Positions 43,643 through 64,000 of a stretch of DNA of 64,000 bases are shown here, piece after piece. Made by a program: the position numbers and the translations under genes. Source of the stretch: Marivirga tractuosa DSM 4126 (GTDB lineage Bacteria > Bacteroidota > Bacteroidia > Cytophagales > Cyclobacteriaceae); the NCBI RefSeq assembly GCF_000183425.1, contig NC_014759.1, positions 3,689,001 to 3,753,000 on the forward strand, in the 5' to 3' direction. The notes beneath the pieces are model-generated. The model saw nothing but the letters and a program-made list of their open reading frames with translations, searched no databases and was not told where the DNA came from. The first letter of the stretch is position 1; each line of letters opens with the position of its first letter.

Positions 43643-43716
43643 GGGCCTATAGCTCAGCTGGTTAGAGCACTTGACTCATAATCAAGTGGTCCCTGGTTCG
43701 AGTCCAGGTGGGCCCA
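43643..43716 (+). tRNA. tRNA-Ile2 with CAU anticodon (lysidine-modified type)
   Basis: A full cloverleaf can be folded. The acceptor stem pairs GGGCCTA (43643-43649) with TGGGCCC (43709-43715), with discriminator A43716. The D arm has AGCTCAGCTGGTTAGAGC. The anticodon arm is CTTGA-CTCATAA-TCAAG, and the T arm is CCTGG-TTCGAGT-CCAGG. The CTCATAATC anticodon loop and body match the minor isoleucine tRNA (k2CAU) rather than elongator or initiator Met. CCA is not encoded. Its 3' end is duplicated at 63645, marking an integration site. Confidence 0.95.
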
Positions 43717-43775
43717 CTTTCAGTATTAATCTGAACACAAAAAGCCTTAAATCTTACGATTTAGGGCTTTTTTGT
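43702..43775 (+). repeat. Left attachment repeat (attL) of the genomic island
   Basis: These 74 bp cover the T-arm 3' half and acceptor 3' strand of tRNA-Ile2 plus its downstream terminator. They match 63645-63718 with only three mismatches (43724, 43728 and 43756); the first 22 bp are identical. Integration of an element at a tRNA 3' end creates exactly this arrangement. Confidence 0.85.
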
Positions 43776-45454: not shown

Positions 45455-45892
45455 AAGTTTATCCAGTCGATTACTTGTTACAAAGTAACATTAAATTTTT
45501 CGTACTTCAAATATTGTAACACGAATTCAACTCAATTTAGTTCTCTTCAAATTATTTAAAAAGGTAATAAGTTATTCATTTTCAGCTGTTGAAGTACCAA
45601 TCAAATCGAGAGCGTTGTGAAGCAAAACGCGTTCGTACTACTCGTCATAAATTTCGAAAATGCCCGCTGGCAAACGTGTCACTTGTGTCTTTAACCTGTA
45701 CACAAATACAACCAACAGCTTATAAAGTGTAAAGCTTCAGTTGTTCAGCAGGCCGCTCACCAGCTCAGTAAATGGCTTAATTTTGTATAGTTTTATATCC
45801 TTTTAAGCATCCATTTGTAGTTAAAGCCTAATTAATTATATTTAAATTCCATAACCAAACGAAATCACATAATCATTGACTATTCCCAACTT
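45455..45892. other. Intergenic region with operator and a degenerate hairpin core
   Basis: This 438-bp gap holds the XRE operon promoter side (see 45476-45520) and, further right, a non-coding stretch. CCGCTCACCAGC at 45753-45764 is a 12-nt match to the core of the hairpin at 53742-53753, and GCCCGCTGGC near 45662 recalls the spacer at 49640. No ORF with a credible start is seen. It probably contains the left remnant of the cassette spacers and the promoter of the WG-repeat lipoprotein gene. Confidence 0.5.
45476..45520 (-). promoter_or_regulatory. Candidate XRE operator
   Basis: TGTTAC (45476-45481), AAA, GTAACA (45485-45490) is a perfect 6-3-6 palindrome 22 bp upstream of the XRE gene start. 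An extra GTAAC half-site lies near 45515. The position and size suit a dimeric XRE repressor site overlapping the promoter. Confidence 0.6.
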
Positions 45893-52524: not shown

Positions 52525-52855
52525 ACTACCGCCACCACCACAATATACCTTATACAGGGTAAGGCATTAAAATAAAATTGTGTTCATTTAATTTAGCTTG
52601 ATACGGCTATAAAAGAAAGTACCTCGAAACCTGGTACCAAACTAAATGCTTCACGTCTTAATCCTATAATACATTCTCCGATTGCCCATTCCCCCACCAT
52701 GCACATTGCCTAATTTCCCTACATCCAGTGCTCACTCCAAAAAATTAGCCAAAGCCCATGGCTCCCACAGCCGAAAGCCTTTAATTTCCCTAAAGGGTAA
52801 ATCAAAGGCCCTCAGATAACCTTCCGCACTTACCCGCACAATCCTTCCCTCATAG

Positions 52856-52903
52856 CTTTTGCTTTTTTTCTGTTAAGCAGATAAAGAGGTAAAAAAGCAA
52901 AAG
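52856..52903. repeat. Hairpin with 13-bp perfect arms
   Basis: CTTTTGCTTTTTT (52856-52868) and AAAAAAGCAAAAG (52891-52903) are exact reverse complements around a 22-nt loop. Nine bases later, CTTTTTGGCT-CCCA-AGCCAAAAAG (52912-52935) forms a second perfect hairpin. Confidence 0.65.
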
Positions 52904-52962
52904 GAAGCGGTCTTTTTGGCTCCCAAGCCAAAAAGTTGTTGTTTGATATACCAGCCGCACTG

Positions 52963-53139
52963 CCAGGCACTATGGTGTGCTGCACTTGGGCTGCGGCAAA
53001 GGGTCTCGCCAGCATTGGCTTCAGGCTTTAAATAATTGTTGATTTATAAGGTTTTTAAAGCCAAAAGCCAACCCCTTCGGGGCAAGTGCTGTCATGCCCC
53101 TTGCAGCTTAGCCCAAGTGCATCACGGCAACCTACCTGG
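52963..53139. repeat. Large nested imperfect hairpin (~177 bp)
   Basis: Outer arms 52963-52992 and 53110-53139 pair at 23 of 30 positions, with a run of 12 perfect pairs. Nested inside, 53015-53032 and 53054-53071 pair at 16 of 18 positions. The result is a long cruciform or RNA hairpin with an A+T-rich tip. Confidence 0.6.
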
Positions 53140-53153
53140 TCTGTTCCTTTAAA

Positions 53154-53445
53154 ATTCCGTAAACTCCATTTAAAAGTAACATCCCCCGGTTGCCAGTGTT
53201 AGGCTCGCCTGCGGGCGCCCCCGGGCTTCGGCTTGTCATGGTTTTTCAAAAAAAGCTGTTAGAATTTAATATTTAAACGGCTACAGCTTTTTTAACTAAA
53301 AACCACGCCAAGCCTTGCTCGCTCCGTTACTCTCCGCTCATAGCTAGCCCCCGTTTCCTTCGGTCACTCTCGGTCTACCACCCGGGGTCGCACTCGCAGA
53401 CGGCTCGACACACAGCGGATTGCAAACCATTCCGTAAACTCCATT
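53154..53445. repeat. 17-bp exact direct repeat ATTCCGTAAACTCCATT (two copies)
   Basis: Copies are at 53154-53170 and 53429-53445, framing the hairpin at 53230-53314. An exact 17-mer repeated in 290 bp of non-coding DNA is unlikely by chance and marks a repeated unit. Confidence 0.6.
53230..53314. repeat. Nested hairpin (85 bp)
   Basis: Outer arms GGCTTGTCATGGTTTTT (53230-53246) and AAAAACCACGCCAAGCC (53298-53314) pair at 15 of 17 positions. Inside, AAAAAAGCTGT (53249-53259) and ACAGCTTTTTT (53283-53293) pair perfectly over 11 bp. Confidence 0.62.
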
Positions 53446-53660
53446 ATTTGCAACCGCTCTTCCTGCGTTCACCCTCCCACATCTGCCCGCATGGGTGCCT
53501 TGATCAAACTGTTGTGCTAATACGATAGGACAGCATTCCACATCCATTCCCAAATTCCCCACCACCCGTTTAAGGTGCGGCTTTAGGCCGCATTGAGTTT
53601 GCCCCAGGAATTTGGACGCTCTTAATTTCCTGATTCAGATAAATATCTTTTCAAAAATAA

Positions 53661-53826
53661 AATAAAAGAGGAAAGCAAGTTAGGGTTGAATTGCTTTTCG
53701 GCCGCAAGTCCAAGCCTTTCAGGTTTTTTAAAAAATCTCCTCCGCTCACCAGCGGAAGTATTTTCCAAAAAAGACTTGCCCCCGAAGCGATTCACCCTAA
53801 AAGAAAAGCTTTCTCTTTTCTTTTTT
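53661..53826. repeat. Constant-core hairpin 1 (~165 bp)
   Basis: Long imperfect arms (53661-53710 and 53773-53826) include TAGGGTTGAATTGCTT, whose partner on the other arm is AAGCGATTCACCCTA, and GCAAGTC paired with GACTTGC. At the centre, 53730-53764 carries A-run, TCTCC, TCCGCT-CACC-AGCGGA, AGTATTTT. The same core occurs at 54518-54552 between unrelated arms. Confidence 0.65.
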
Positions 53827-54042
53827 TTTCTTTTTTTTCTTTTCTCTTTTGAAAATATTTCCCTGTGGTGTGTAGGTTATTCGATAGGTATTTTTCTATA
53901 GATACAGATCTGTAATTTATTTTTAACAATAATTATAAATAGTTTTTCCTATAATAGCACTCTAATTGAGTTATCATTACCTTTTTAAAACAATAGAAAG
54001 TGTAGGAGTATATAAAACATCTTTCAATACAATTTTTCGAAA

Positions 54043-54342
54043 ATGCGCTACCTAATTTTATCAATAACTATCATCCTGTTATTATCAATCTATATACTGT
54101 CAATCATAAGAATAAAGTATGTTCTTAGACATTTTATTTCCAATTTTTCTACTTTAATGAGAAAAAGAAGATCGGGATTTTCAGTAAAAAAAAGAGTGAA
54201 CTTGTTAATTAAAGAAAGCGATTTAAACTATGAAAACAAACACGTTGAAACTCTAATCAGATTAGAATATGCTCAGATAATAGTTTCAATACTGTTTTTT
54301 ATTTTTGCCTTTGTCAGTATGTATTTATTTATGGAAAGATAA
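54043..54342 (+). CDS. Small two-helix membrane protein (99 aa)
   Basis: The protein has a hydrophobic helix at about 3-23, a basic middle (LRHFISNFSTLMRKRRSGFSVKKR) and a second helix at about 73-95 ending MYLFMER. Composition and codon use look like a real gene rather than a shadow, but no family is recognised. It lies between the two constant-core hairpins, so it may be the cargo of a cassette, or a small membrane effector. Confidence 0.5.
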   Translation: MRYLILSITIILLLSIYILSIIRIKYVLRHFISNFSTLMRKRRSGFSVKKRVNLLIKESDLNYENKHVETLIRLEYAQIIVSILFFIFAFVSMYLFMER

Positions 54343-54481
54343 ATATATTCAGAGGAGGTAGCTTTCCAAAGCTAAGTTTCTGCCATAATGCTCAAGTTCT
54401 AAAACAGCTCTTTAACGGCTTTTCTGCGACTCGACAGTGAAAAAATCAATCCAAACATAGTGAAATTTACAGGCATGCGGA

Positions 54482-54579
54482 TGAGAAAGATGCAAGAGTT
54501 CGCTTTGCCGGCTACAAAAAAAATCTCCTCCGCTTACTAGCGGAAGTATTTTTTATGTGCCGCTCTTGCATCTATCTCA
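54482..54579. repeat. Constant-core hairpin 2 (98 bp)
   Basis: Arms TGAGAAAGATGCAAGAG (54482-54498) and CTCTTGCATCTATCTCA (54563-54579) pair at 16 of 17 positions. The centre (54518-54552) repeats the core of hairpin 1: A-run, TCTCC, TCCGCT-TACT-AGCGGA, AGTATTTT. The arms show no similarity to those of hairpin 1, so core and arms evolve differently. Confidence 0.7.
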
Positions 54580-54775
54580 CCGGTCCTGTGTGGATGCGCA
54601 CTATGTTTAAATTAATTTTTAGAGTGCGCATCGCCAGCCGGTGGTTGGTGGCGTACATTCGTCTTCGTCCAGCGTTTAGTTTAACGCGGTTTCGTGTTCA
54701 GTCTGAAGGTTATTATTTCCTTCGGTTTTTGTGGTTTGAGATTAATTTATCGCCATTGCCGTTTTAGTTTTATTG

Positions 54776-54806
54776 CCTGGTGGGTTTAGCCTGCCAGGTT
54801 TTTATT
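54776..54806 (+). terminator. Rho-independent terminator
   Basis: CCTGGTGGG (54776-54784) pairs with CCTGCCAGG (54790-54798), with two wobbles, around TTTAG and is followed by a T-rich run. No annotated gene precedes it closely, which hints at a non-coding transcript in 54343-54775. Confidence 0.65.
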
Positions 54807-54841
54807 TTTTTGTTAATTCCCCTGAAGATTGGACATAAAAA

Positions 54842-54864
54842 AACCGTAGCTAAAAACTACGGTT
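54842..54864 (-). terminator. Terminator of the aldo/keto reductase gene
   Basis: AACCGTAG (54842-54849) and CTACGGTT (54857-54864) form an 8-bp stem; on the minus strand a T-run follows. The 25 bases at 54838-54862 match 61411-61435 at 23 positions. Confidence 0.8.
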
Positions 54865-61435: not shown

Positions 61436-61608
61436 CCTTTCTTCTTGATTTTCTTGACCACCCATTTCATGGCCAAGGACATACAAAAACTAACTAATGC
61501 TCCTACAGCTGCCAGAATACAAGTTTTGATGATATCAGCACTTTGCAAATTGACCAGCACCGTAAGGATTGTTCCCCCAGCTGTGCCTGCCTTACCGTGG
61601 ACTTGCAT
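61423..61608 (-). CDS. Small membrane protein of the DUF5675 cassette (61 aa)
   Basis: I start at ATG 61608 (MQVHGKAGTAGGTILTVL), preceded by an AGGGAG ribosome-binding-like sequence and overlapping the DUF5675 gene end by 17 bp. It has two hydrophobic stretches (about 8-20 and 25-50) and a lysine-rich tail (KWVVKKIKKKGRSS). The small size, glycine-rich start and basic tail recall holin-like proteins, but that is a guess. Its stop lies within the terminator hairpin. Confidence 0.68.
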   Translation of the reverse strand: MQVHGKAGTAGGTILTVLVNLQSADIIKTCILAAVGALVSFCMSLAMKWVVKKIKKKGRSS

Positions 61609-62254
61609 CTCCCTTGTTTTTGACCTCAGGCAGTGGAGGAATTTTGACCTCATTATCCACTGTCACCTGACTTACTGCAGTCAGGACACTGGCACCAACG
61701 GTCAAATATCCTGCAACGGTGATCAAGCCAGCTGGCAATGTGATGGGCGCTCCTAAAAGAGCGCCTCCAGCAGCAGCCAATATCAGACCGACTGTCCGCA
61801 ATTTTCTAAACAACTTTGGAGTGGGCTTTTTAACTCGTTCTAAAATATTCATAGCTGATTTCTCTTTAATAGTGATGTAAATATGATTTTGCTTCTCTTG
61901 AGCCTCTTCAAAGACTTCCAAAAGCCTGTCCATGGCTTCACTCGATCGGATTCCTTTTCCTATTCCTGTTAGCTCCGAGACTGGTGCAATACAGCCTTCC
62001 AATTCTGTCCTAGCATCATTCGCAGGATGGATTAAAATCCAACTTCTTCCAGGAACACTTTTCAATATCAGATGAAATCCCCTCTCATGGGTAATCCTTT
62101 TTTCAAGTAGGTATTTACCTTCTGGGATACAACTAATAAAAGGCTGATTCTCCTTCCACGGAAGTTCAATAGTATGGCAGATTTTTTCACTGCCATACCT
62201 CAAGCTCCCATTGGTTCCGCTGGACCTATAATTTCGAATAAGTTCAAAACTCAT
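61592..62254 (-). CDS. DUF5675 domain protein with C-terminal membrane segments
   Basis: The ATG at 62254 (MSFELIRNYRSS) is the likely start. Residues about 1-130 match DUF5675: a Y-G-x-x-K/x-C-H-T-I-E-L-P-W-x-x-N core, CIPEGKYLLEKR, and WILIHPANDARTELEGCIAP. The His and Cys positions suggest a peptidase-like active site, as in related L,D-transpeptidase-like folds, but no activity is established. About 145-200 are hydrophobic and glycine/alanine-rich. It sits between the MARQKG-type gene (9 bp upstream) and the small membrane gene (17-bp overlap). Confidence 0.8.
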   Translation of the reverse strand: MSFELIRNYRSSGTNGSLRYGSEKICHTIELPWKENQPFISCIPEGKYLLEKRITHERGFHLILKSVPGRSWILIHPANDARTELEGCIAPVSELTGIGKGIRSSEAMDRLLEVFEEAQEKQNHIYITIKEKSAMNILERVKKPTPKLFRKLRTVGLILAAAGGALLGAPITLPAGLITVAGYLTVGASVLTAVSQVTVDNEVKIPPLPEVKNKGDASPR

Positions 62255-62263
62255 TTCCAAATT

Positions 62264-63034
62264 CTATAAAGGTCCGGGAATAGTATTGTCAATCTCTACC
62301 AAGGCAAGAGCATTGTACGCACCGTTTTTAAGCGGGTACATTGTCCCGTTTACTTCCTGCAGGAATTCCACCCCAAAAAGTAAAAAGATTGGAAAATCTC
62401 CTGTTGTAGGAACCGTAGCGGTCAAGTTGATAGCTGATTCCGATTGAGGACCAATAGCAATATCACTGCTTTCATCAGTGTCCAAGTCGAACGATTCACC
62501 TTCAAAGTCCACTTTACTTGCAGCTACAATCAAGCGCATATGGGTAGCCCCTCCAGGAGCAGCAAAAGTATTCTGAGGAATAAACCCCGGAATGTTTACC
62601 GTTGCCTCACCACTTGCACGATCAATGGCAGCCGAAAAAGGCGCATACATGGTTGCATTAAGCTTTCCGTTTTGATTAAACTCAAAACCCTTCAGCAGCT
62701 CAACATCACCTTCACTAGCCGTTCTTTGTCCTCTATCGTTGGATGTATCGCTTTTCACGACCTTGACCATTTCTCTGGTCATTCGGCTGGCCACTCTACC
62801 ATCAGCCGCCTTCAAGAGTAGAGGTCGAACAGAAGTTCTCAAAAGCCTTCCAGCTTTTCCAGCCCTCCCGAATTCAGCGCCATTTTCCCGAGTCCTCTGG
62901 AAAGCAGGGTCATTCTTCATACGCTCTTTGTCAATTCCGCCTTTTTCCCTGGCCAAGTAGCCATCTTTCGTTTTGTAGAAAGACAGATCCCCGATCTTGC
63001 CTTTCAGTTTGATTATACCTTTTTGTCTTGCCAT
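62264..63034 (-). CDS. MARQKG-type conserved hypothetical protein (256 aa)
   Basis: I start at ATG 63034 (MARQKGIIKLKGKIGDLSFY), a start I have seen conserved in hypothetical proteins of Bacteroidota. The N-terminal 100 residues are basic (LAREKGGIDKERMKNDPAFQ, RTRENGAEFGRAGKAGRLLR), and the rest is beta-rich with an acidic segment (DLDTDESSDIAIGPQSES). Phage structural or nucleic-acid-binding roles could be imagined, but none is supported. It is the first gene of the three-gene minus-strand cassette. Confidence 0.75.
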   Translation of the reverse strand: MARQKGIIKLKGKIGDLSFYKTKDGYLAREKGGIDKERMKNDPAFQRTRENGAEFGRAGKAGRLLRTSVRPLLLKAADGRVASRMTREMVKVVKSDTSNDRGQRTASEGDVELLKGFEFNQNGKLNATMYAPFSAAIDRASGEATVNIPGFIPQNTFAAPGGATHMRLIVAASKVDFEGESFDLDTDESSDIAIGPQSESAINLTATVPTTGDFPIFLLFGVEFLQEVNGTMYPLKNGAYNALALVEIDNTIPGPL

Positions 63035-63215
63035 AATTGATAAATATATTTGATGAGTCACCAAAGTATTTCTCAAATGAGCGTTTGTCAAAAACTGACT
63101 TCCGATAAAGGTTGTGTTGTCTTAATTGGCAATTATTGTCGCTAAAGCTTTCAAGAAATTGGCTATATTAGTGTATAGCATCCTTATGGATAAAGTATAG
63201 ATAAAGTATGAAGTC

Positions 63216-63413
63216 ATGATATTGAAAAGAACCGTCATATATCCAAAGGACATACAGCGCATCACGGGTAAGAGCGAACGCACTGGAAGACGAATATTAG
63301 AACGTATAAGAGAACAAAAAGGAAAAGAGAAGCATCAGCTGATCACCGTTTCCGAGTTCGCAGATTACACCGGAATAGATGCTGAAACAGTCCAAGAATA
63401 CCTCACCGATTAA
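63216..63413 (+). CDS. Small HTH-like protein next to the attachment site (65 aa)
   Basis: The 65-residue basic protein reads IYPKDIQRITGKSERTGRRI, then ITVSEFADYTGIDAETVQEY: two short helical motifs that look like MerR/excisionase-type recognition helices. It is divergent from the MARQKG-type gene across a 181-bp promoter region with a repeated GATAAAGTAT. Its place 230 bp from attR suits an excisionase or cassette regulator. The function is inferred only from shape and place. Confidence 0.62.
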   Translation: MILKRTVIYPKDIQRITGKSERTGRRILERIREQKGKEKHQLITVSEFADYTGIDAETVQEYLTD

Positions 63414-63568
63414 GCCAAATTTTTAGGTTCTAATCCAGAAATTTTCCCGCCTTTTATTCATAAAATTTGCCCTTTTTTGCGTATATTTAGTATAACAAAG
63501 AAACGTTCTTTGGCAGTTTTAGCTTCAAAAAGAGCCGATATTTGGTGACAAAAACGATTAAATTTTTA

Positions 63569-63585
63569 GTGCCCTATTCGTGCCC
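63569..63585. promoter_or_regulatory. GTGCCC direct repeats near attR, candidate integrase arm sites
   Basis: GTGCCC-TATTC-GTGCCC places two identical hexamers 11 bp apart, one helical turn, about 60 bp from the attachment core. Such paired direct repeats near att sites often bind tyrosine-recombinase arm domains. This is an inference from position only. Confidence 0.4.
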
Positions 63586-63644
63586 TTTTAAACCATACAA
63601 ATCATAAGTAACTGAATATCAGTTTTAAATAAGGTTTTAGTGTG

Positions 63645-63718
63645 GTCCAGGTGGGCCCACTTTCAGAATTTATCTGAACACAAAAAGCCTTAAATCTTAT
63701 GATTTAGGGCTTTTTTGT
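63645..63718 (+). repeat. Right attachment repeat (attR): copy of tRNA-Ile2 3' end plus terminator
   Basis: This matches 43702-43775 at 71 of 74 positions. It holds only the last part of the tRNA (from GTCCAGG on), so it is not a second tRNA gene. The terminator hairpin is intact (63681-63713) with one change in the loop. The separation of 19,943 bp gives the island size. Confidence 0.85.
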
Positions 63719-64000
63719 GTCATTAGCCGAAATCCTCCTCAACCGCTACAGCCATTTCACAACCAGTGGAATGATTACCCCTGCCGCCACAAACCTTAAT
63801 CCTGATGAACTTGAAAACCTTTACTGAAACAGAGTGAGGTCTCGGATGATAGAAATGTTTAATCTGATACCATTTAATTCAAAAGACAAAATGTTCTGAT
63901 GAGATTAAACATTCATAAGTGCAATAACAAATAAAAAACACGCATAAATGTTTAATTTGATTGCATTTTATTTTACAGATAAAAGAATTTAATGCAATAA

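Follow-up and report, generated by a model that had tools for sequence, protein, structure and literature searches.

DNA hairpins in a tRNA-Met island of Marivirga tractuosa belong to a Bacteroidota-wide mobile-element family of likely single-stranded-DNA promoters

The window analysed here, a 64,000-nucleotide stretch of Marivirga tractuosa DSM 4126 (contig NC_014759.1, positions 3,689,001 to 3,753,000), contains a 19.9-kb island in a tRNA-Met gene (43703-63718), which is bounded by 73-bp att repeats and has no integrase of its own. The target tRNA-Met was located by tRNA search at 43643-43717; attL, comprising the tRNA-Met 3′ end and a terminator, occupies 43703-43775, and attR, an imperfect direct repeat of attL, occupies 63646-63718, all three on the plus strand and the two repeats read directly from the sequence. 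None of the ten Phage_integrase matches in the genome falls in the window, leaving this island with no tyrosine recombinase, and no relaxase was found among its ORFs scanned against Pfam, so the island would need to be moved in trans. The genome has two sister islands, one in tRNA-Arg (att at 544961 and 568547) and one in tRNA-Pro (both tRNAs confirmed by ARAGORN). Both carry a tyrosine recombinase near the tRNA (domains Arm-DNA-bind_5 and Phage_int_SAM_5); the genes after it have relatives in other genera and include an AAA ATPase. Just past attR in the window, at 63720-63890, lies a 57-aa piece of an AAA ATPase gene that is 79-84% identical to the sister-island ATPases, which suggests a decayed tandem element. 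Part of a circular 25,320-bp record from Marivirga sp. BKB1-2 is a related element.

The right end of the island is formed by a module of two minus-strand genes at about 61.4-63.5 kb of the window. The DUF5675 gene (61592-62260; PF18925, E 1.1e-26) belongs to a family whose literature, judged by titles, concerns phage genomes, and its neighbour at 62264-63091 resembles DUF6266 by eye and has no Pfam or NCBIfam match. A sister copy of this DUF6266-like gene (L073, 5586-6356) has at least 7058 homologs (90% clusters, E ≤ 1e-3) with a strongly conserved N-terminus; the AlphaFold model of the protein has a mean pLDDT of 79, no PDB fold was matched at E ≤ 0.001, and no close relatives in viral contigs were confirmed. 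A small plus-strand ORF beside attR (63219-63413), kept in copies of the island and giving weak helix-turn-helix matches that all lie below cut-offs, is excisionase-like by position. Fifteen aligned right ends run into short stretches that read, by eye, as tRNA 3′ ends. Near attR, each aligned island end holds a pair of GTGnnC direct repeats (GTGTCC, GTGCCC, GTGAAC or GTGTAC; 63560-63590 in the window, by eye), possibly integrase arm sites that vary by island.

At three loci of the M. tractuosa genome, in the window island and its two sister islands, the same pair of blocks recurs: a left block (about 1.2 kb) that closes with hairpin 1 and a right block (about 460 bp) that contains hairpin 2. 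The genes between the two blocks differ among the three loci. The left block was found in nine of ten Marivirga genomes, sometimes only as a short part, and the right block in seven of ten (E ≤ 0.001). By alignment, the conserved noncoding left block spans 52696-53654 on the plus strand, with a sharp left end, ACCATGCGCATTGCC, in 14 aligned Marivirga copies; similarity search and alignment place the right block at 54401-54862, also on the plus strand, and the right end module follows it. The slot downstream of hairpin 1 is filled by a 99-aa plus-strand ORF (54043-54342), which has no Pfam match and of which a 99% identical copy occupies the same slot in another Marivirga genome. Two further structures were recognised in the alignment, an intrinsic-terminator-like hairpin with a T run and compensating changes among copies (54776-54812, plus strand) and a terminator-like hairpin common to the right end module (54837-54863, minus strand). 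No plus-strand gene lies between hairpin 2 and the terminator in the window.

Hairpin 1 (53661-53850, plus strand) was delimited by covariance model, DNA fold and alignment of copies, and consists of a purine arm, a branched stem, a tip whose frame lies at 53733-53764, and a polypyrimidine tract at 53809-53850. Hairpin 2 (54449-54610, plus strand), delimited by covariance model and DNA fold, has arms unrelated to those of hairpin 1. The two share an exact 29-nt core, TCTCCTCCGCTNACNAGCGGAAGTATTTT, at 53736-53764 and 54524-54552 (0 matches in 100 shuffles). Folded as DNA and compared with dinucleotide shuffles, hairpin 1 reached z −7.7 and hairpin 2 z −7.3; folded as RNA they reached −4.5 and −6.4, also far better than shuffles. 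The covariance model R1, built from 19 hairpin-1 sequences, matched hairpin 1 at 53693-53823 with 151 bits, a score to be read knowing that the model included a copy of that locus, and matched hairpin 2 at 54481-54613 with 40.4 bits (E 5e-7). Both hairpins are therefore confirmed as real, far beyond chance and related to each other, which bears out the sequence-only reading that had described two hairpins with a common core and mutually unrelated, self-pairing arms on the basis of the letters of the window; the exact core, the strong folds and the compensating changes all agree with it.

That reading had also called the tip constant, and here core match and frame comparison led to a revision. 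The plus-strand tip of hairpin 1 (53730-53764) reads AAATCTCC-TCCGCT CACC AGCGGA-AGTATTTT and that of hairpin 2 (54518-54552) reads AAATCTCC-TCCGCT TACT AGCGGA-AGTATTTT, and among relatives the fixed part is a frame, AAATCTCC-exchangeable stem-NGTATTTT. The frame thus held as constant and the apical stem did not, being swapped freely among TCCGCT/AGCGGA, TCCGCC/GGCGGA, ACCGC/GCGGT, ACCC/GGGT and AGCAT-loop-ATGCT. The arms are kept within each hairpin class across copies and vary in compensating pairs. The M. tractuosa genome (4,516,490 bp, 2 contigs) has seven places within three mismatches of the core; four carry the frame, and the remaining three, with two or three mismatches, lack it. A 12-nt piece of the core noted earlier at 45753-45764 also lacks the frame and gave no model match up to E 1 in a scan of the whole window, and looks like chance. 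The exact core was found in three stretches among wider genome contigs, one of them in Marivirga arenosa, with about two expected by chance (an estimate), and the pattern AAAAATCTCC-gap-GTATTTTT matched at least 120 stretches in viral contigs. On the 3′ side of hairpin 1, the polypyrimidine tract at 53809-53850 is a mirror repeat, CTTTCTCTTTTCTTTTTTT...CTTTTTTCTTTTCTCTTTT, strongly conserved across genera, and could form a triplex or H-DNA.

The R1 model found matches well outside Marivirga. At E ≤ 0.001, matches were present in 21 of 390 genomes sampled from the order, 26 of 395 from the phylum and 33 of 395 from the class, counts that come from overlapping samples and include the M. tractuosa genome itself. 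A BLAST search with one Cytophagales hairpin region matched ten plasmids, nine of them over the hairpin-1 tip, including the M. tractuosa plasmid pMT1; the tenth, from Tunicatimonas, matched over the hairpin-2 part, within an annotated DUF4942 gene. A Parabacteroides query matched eight plasmids, seven of them shared with the Cytophagales query, and a pMT1 query added a 2.8-kb Empedobacter plasmid and a 2.7-kb Elizabethkingia plasmid through a 49-nt tip match that folds as a hairpin. In pMT1 (4,916 bp) the related hairpin lies between rep and mobC, with a weak model score of 19 bits (E 0.037) and an only moderate DNA fold of z −2.95 (3 of 200 shuffles as good); in the Empedobacter plasmid it lies between repL and mobV, and on other plasmids hairpins lie upstream of PcfK/PcfJ operons. 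A Bacteroides ovatus plasmid carries four near-identical copies of about 300 nt (L342, 5989-11745, in a 12-kb stretch), shortly 5′ of small same-strand ORFs and with a DNA fold of z −5.7; as a BLAST query this hairpin matched its own record only, and the four-repeat stretch is a candidate entry (leading) region. The hairpin family is thus carried by tRNA-integrated islands and by plasmids across Bacteroidota. The search found neither a repeat confined to a single genome nor arms that lose their complementarity in relatives, the two outcomes that the sequence-only reading had named as counting against it.

Covariation in the stem was assessed in two alignments. In A4, comprising 43 sequences outside the model, 24 of 30 pairs showed double changes (219 double-change cells), and the covariation score was 0.420, compared with 0.113 for shuffled alignments and 0.040-0.061 for slid structures. 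Strong stem covariation was also seen in A3, which holds 28 distinct sequences, five of whose loci are shared with the model; both alignments were fitted to the model, and their paired percentages lean toward it. Together with the homologues, this covariation agrees with the earlier proposal that selection acts on the structure of the element, whose arms are free in sequence yet stay complementary, and that it probably works in single-stranded form within a mobile island.

The kind of nucleic acid that folds was addressed through the mismatches. Among 1,182 A4 cells, with one constant G·T pair omitted, 1,079 were Watson-Crick, 17 G·T, 20 A·C and 66 other, so that one-sided changes are rare in the stem and neither strand shows a G-U excess. 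RNA helices usually tolerate far more G-U pairs, on one strand. The equal rarity of G·T and A·C tends to favour folding as DNA. Noisier counts gave no clear strand, with GT1 and AC1 at 862 and 1390 in hairpin 1 and at 310 and 364 in hairpin 2; a count of distinct cases, 74 AC against 38 GT, set beside the ratio of 1.0-1.3 expected from base composition alone, points weakly to the minus strand. A strand test from free folds was circular and was dropped. At gathering score, Rfam gave only the tRNA-Met in the window, and ten weak matches lay below it.

Gene context was examined for 43 matches in 40 loci, the best-scoring part of the phylum and class matches, using ORFs of at least 80 aa. The nearest 3′ ORF lies on the same strand in 36 of 43 matches (binomial p 9e-6; this and the other p values overstate significance, since the 42-43 sequences are related to one another and come from the top-scoring matches), and the nearest 5′ ORF does so in 24 of 36, with seven matches having no 5′ ORF. 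Within 1 kb downstream on the same strand, 28 of the 43 have a DUF6943 (20), SSB (4), RadC (2) or PcfK (2) gene. Of ten proteins searched against Pfam, four proved to be DUF6943, two SSB, one PcfK and one RadC, and two had no match. In islands of other Cytophagales genera DUF6943 lies 3′ of hairpin 1, and in the one such island tested the gene after DUF6943 is a true DUF6266 (PF19781, E 1e-109); no literature was found on DUF6943. Upstream of hairpins, mercury-resistance-type cargo (ArsR, MerT-HMA) occurs in more than one genus (L074, 2633-5018; L168, 10376-11349), accompanied in L074 by a pyridine nucleotide-disulphide oxidoreductase.

The Bacteroidota −7 promoter box has the consensus TAnnTTTG. 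A gene-directed box proved to be absent 3′ of the tip, occurring in 3 of 39 sequences against 6.0 in shuffles (the 39 being the 34 of 43 matches in which GTATT was found plus five others), and for this reason the antisense strand was tested. The box was sought in 42 of the 43 matches, one at a contig end (L371) having been dropped, and compared with 200 shuffles. On the opposite strand upstream, in a 291-nt interval spanning the hairpin's 5′ side, TAnnTTTG was present in 33 of 42 sequences against 9.2 in shuffles (0 of 200 shuffles as high), and with a TTG placed 17-23 nt before it in 19 of 42 against 1.7. No enrichment was seen for the opposite-strand box downstream (7 of 42 against 7.5 shuffled) or for the gene-strand box, either upstream (2 of 42 against 5.2) or downstream (2 of 42 against 6.0). 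In 32 of the 42 the box lies 15-34 nt 5′ of the model start, near the hairpin base, and in 28 of these 32 the preceding base, which was outside the search pattern, is G, so that the gene strand reads GCAAAnnTA; several of the other ten matches have one-letter variants of the box. The −33 spacing is variable among loci. Among ordinary genes of the window, the box occurred in 3 of 11 against 1.9 in shuffles, a weak general marker here.

At the level of single loci the box is less uniform. Of 25 Cytophagales loci checked one by one, the base box is exact in 11, a variant in 6 and absent in either form from 8; the box of the B. ovatus copy is likewise a variant. Exact base boxes were found on pMT1 and pMMCAT, and exact boxes also on the viral contig L200 and on plasmid stretches from Empedobacter, Elizabethkingia, Tunicatimonas and Phocaeicola (OY726019). 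Within the window, hairpin 2 has at its base an exact candidate −7 box on the minus strand, TATGTTTG (54452-54459). Hairpin 1 has an exact minus-strand candidate, TATTTTTG, at 53652-53659, which is 41 nt before the model start and so outside the 15-34 nt seen in relatives, and a near-consensus variant, TAACTTG, at its base (53676-53682, minus strand); in Marivirga copies of hairpin 1 the conserved place holds, at best, a near-consensus box.

We propose, with a probability of roughly 0.6, that both hairpins belong to a family of DNA hairpins carried by mobile elements across Bacteroidota whose likely role is that of promoters on single-stranded DNA, comparable to Frpo/ssi but independent of them, with the function inferred from the features described above. 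In conjugative entry one strand would arrive, and the minus strand, the template of the downstream gene, would fold into the hairpin. The stem would then supply a duplex promoter, with the −33 element coming from a conserved CCTTG of the stem and the −7 element at its base. In duplex DNA the box would direct transcription away from the gene; on the folded minus strand, the box and CCTTG would lie on the 3′ arm with the 5′ arm as template, and RNA polymerase would travel out along the polypyrimidine arm and on into the gene, which would be on only while the DNA is single-stranded. Alternatively, the transcript would serve to prime synthesis of the second strand. Applied to the window, this would have hairpin 1 driving the 99-aa ORF, and hairpin 2, with its terminator behind it, yielding a short primer-like RNA. 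Free complementary arms, Watson-Crick covariation, an antisense box, a same-strand gene, uniformly oriented copies and the association with SSB would all follow from a promoter of the folded strand. The proposal is weakened by the exact box being present in only 11 of the 25 loci checked singly. A broader version, plausible and held more tentatively, is that of a phylum-wide promoter, backwards in the duplex and gene-facing once the single strand folds, which would be a sensor of DNA entry evolved independently of Frpo and would mark entry genes (SSB, PcfK, RadC, DUF6943 and many uncharacterised small ORFs) both on plasmids and on islands without transfer genes of their own.

Other explanations share part of this evidence. 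A structured RNA leader, lying in the 5′ UTR and regulating the downstream gene or ending transcription early at the U-rich tract, would account for the same-strand downstream ORF in 36 of 43 matches, the strong covariation, the U-rich tract after hairpin 1 and the plus-strand terminator after hairpin 2. We consider it unlikely given 17 G·T against 20 A·C in 1,182 cells with no G-U excess on either strand, a gene-directed TAnnTTTG upstream in 2 of 42 sequences, under the shuffled 5.2, and no Rfam match at gathering score; the same results speak against the plain regulatory RNA that the sequence-only reading had entertained. A giant structured RNA with an insertion slot had been considered and was dropped after the G·T and A·C counts, the plasmid matches and the promoter-box result. 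Similarly placed is an initiation site for primase or primosome only (ssi/sso), priming the second strand with no gene expression. Such a site would suit the RepL plasmids of 2.7-2.8 kb, which have just one or two genes annotated, the islands with replication-like genes (a role assigned by eye) and hairpin 2 with no downstream plus-strand gene, yet a primase site needs neither the same-strand link to entry genes nor the antisense −7 box, and this too seems improbable to us.

The antisense box in 33 of 42 sequences could also be read as an ordinary duplex promoter for a leftward small RNA, with the hairpin behind it a separate feature; that reading leaves a covarying stem behind the promoter and outside its transcript, the left neighbour ORF is leftward in only 12 of 36 cases, and we regard it as very unlikely. 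Least probable of all, the hairpins would be origins of transfer, or parts of them, recognised by a relaxase, as their positions upstream of mobC in pMT1 and mobV in the Empedobacter plasmid might indicate. Against this, one plasmid has four copies within 6 kb, the islands have two each and no relaxase was found there, and the hairpins occur next to MOBP, MobV and untyped elements alike, which would be expected to have different oriTs; the −7 box would also be left unexplained. A transposon with hairpin ends and an integron-like platform were both dropped on account of the tRNA att sites.

Conjugation moves much of the gut and marine Bacteroidota gene pool. A single-strand promoter signature would point directly at entry genes and, if the proposal is true, would mark islands as conjugation travellers even where they have no transfer genes; it would also open a clean in vitro route to how RNA polymerase, with a sigma factor other than that of E. 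coli, handles folded single strands. No report on entering-strand gene expression in Bacteroidota was found in a search that left most subscription papers and preprints outside its scope, so that novelty is provisional.

Among known systems, integron attC sites are selected as folded single strands with free arm sequence, and the hairpins are alike in single-strand folding and free arms. They differ in that attC has constant outer sites and the hairpins a constant tip frame; no cassette boundaries were seen beside the hairpins, the island terminates in tRNA att sites, and the sister-island recombinases are of the Arm-DNA-bind_5 type beside a tRNA, which does not fit integron attC, so that the integron-like recombination first suggested for the locus finds no support. 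The retron msr-msd is likewise a long hairpin in mobile islands, where a reverse transcriptase would be expected beside it; none was found among the main island ORFs scanned with Pfam, which argues against the retron-like msd that had also been suggested. Single-strand origins and primosome assembly sites of small plasmids are single-strand hairpins that start RNA or DNA synthesis. The hairpin family resembles them in its presence on 2.7-2.8-kb RepL plasmids and differs in its association with gene starts and with a promoter box that is enriched.

The closest likeness is to Frpo/ssi of the leading region of F and other conjugative plasmids, which shares a long imperfect DNA hairpin upstream of ssb or entry genes, an A/T-rich tip, several one-orientation copies per element and, here only tentatively, stem-borne promoter elements. 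For F, PMC11541004 describes Frpo as a promoter formed by a folded single strand, one copy of which precedes an SSB gene, and it describes the entry genes of conjugative elements studied so far as rich in anti-defence functions; the string 'bacteroid' is absent from the main text of that paper. For comparison, the F region upstream of ssb forms one long hairpin with an A/T-rich tip and a DNA fold of z −5.8. The family described here is unlike Frpo in its Bacteroidota-type box, its fixed internal-loop frame with an exchangeable apical stem, and DUF6943 as the commonest downstream family. Searched with R1 with filters off, the F plasmid (48001-68000) gave a best score of 15.5 bits (E 0.039), not above noise and away from the ssb-upstream region. 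Homology to Frpo is thus not supported and, on present evidence, the hairpin family of Bacteroidota islands and plasmids would appear to work like Frpo.
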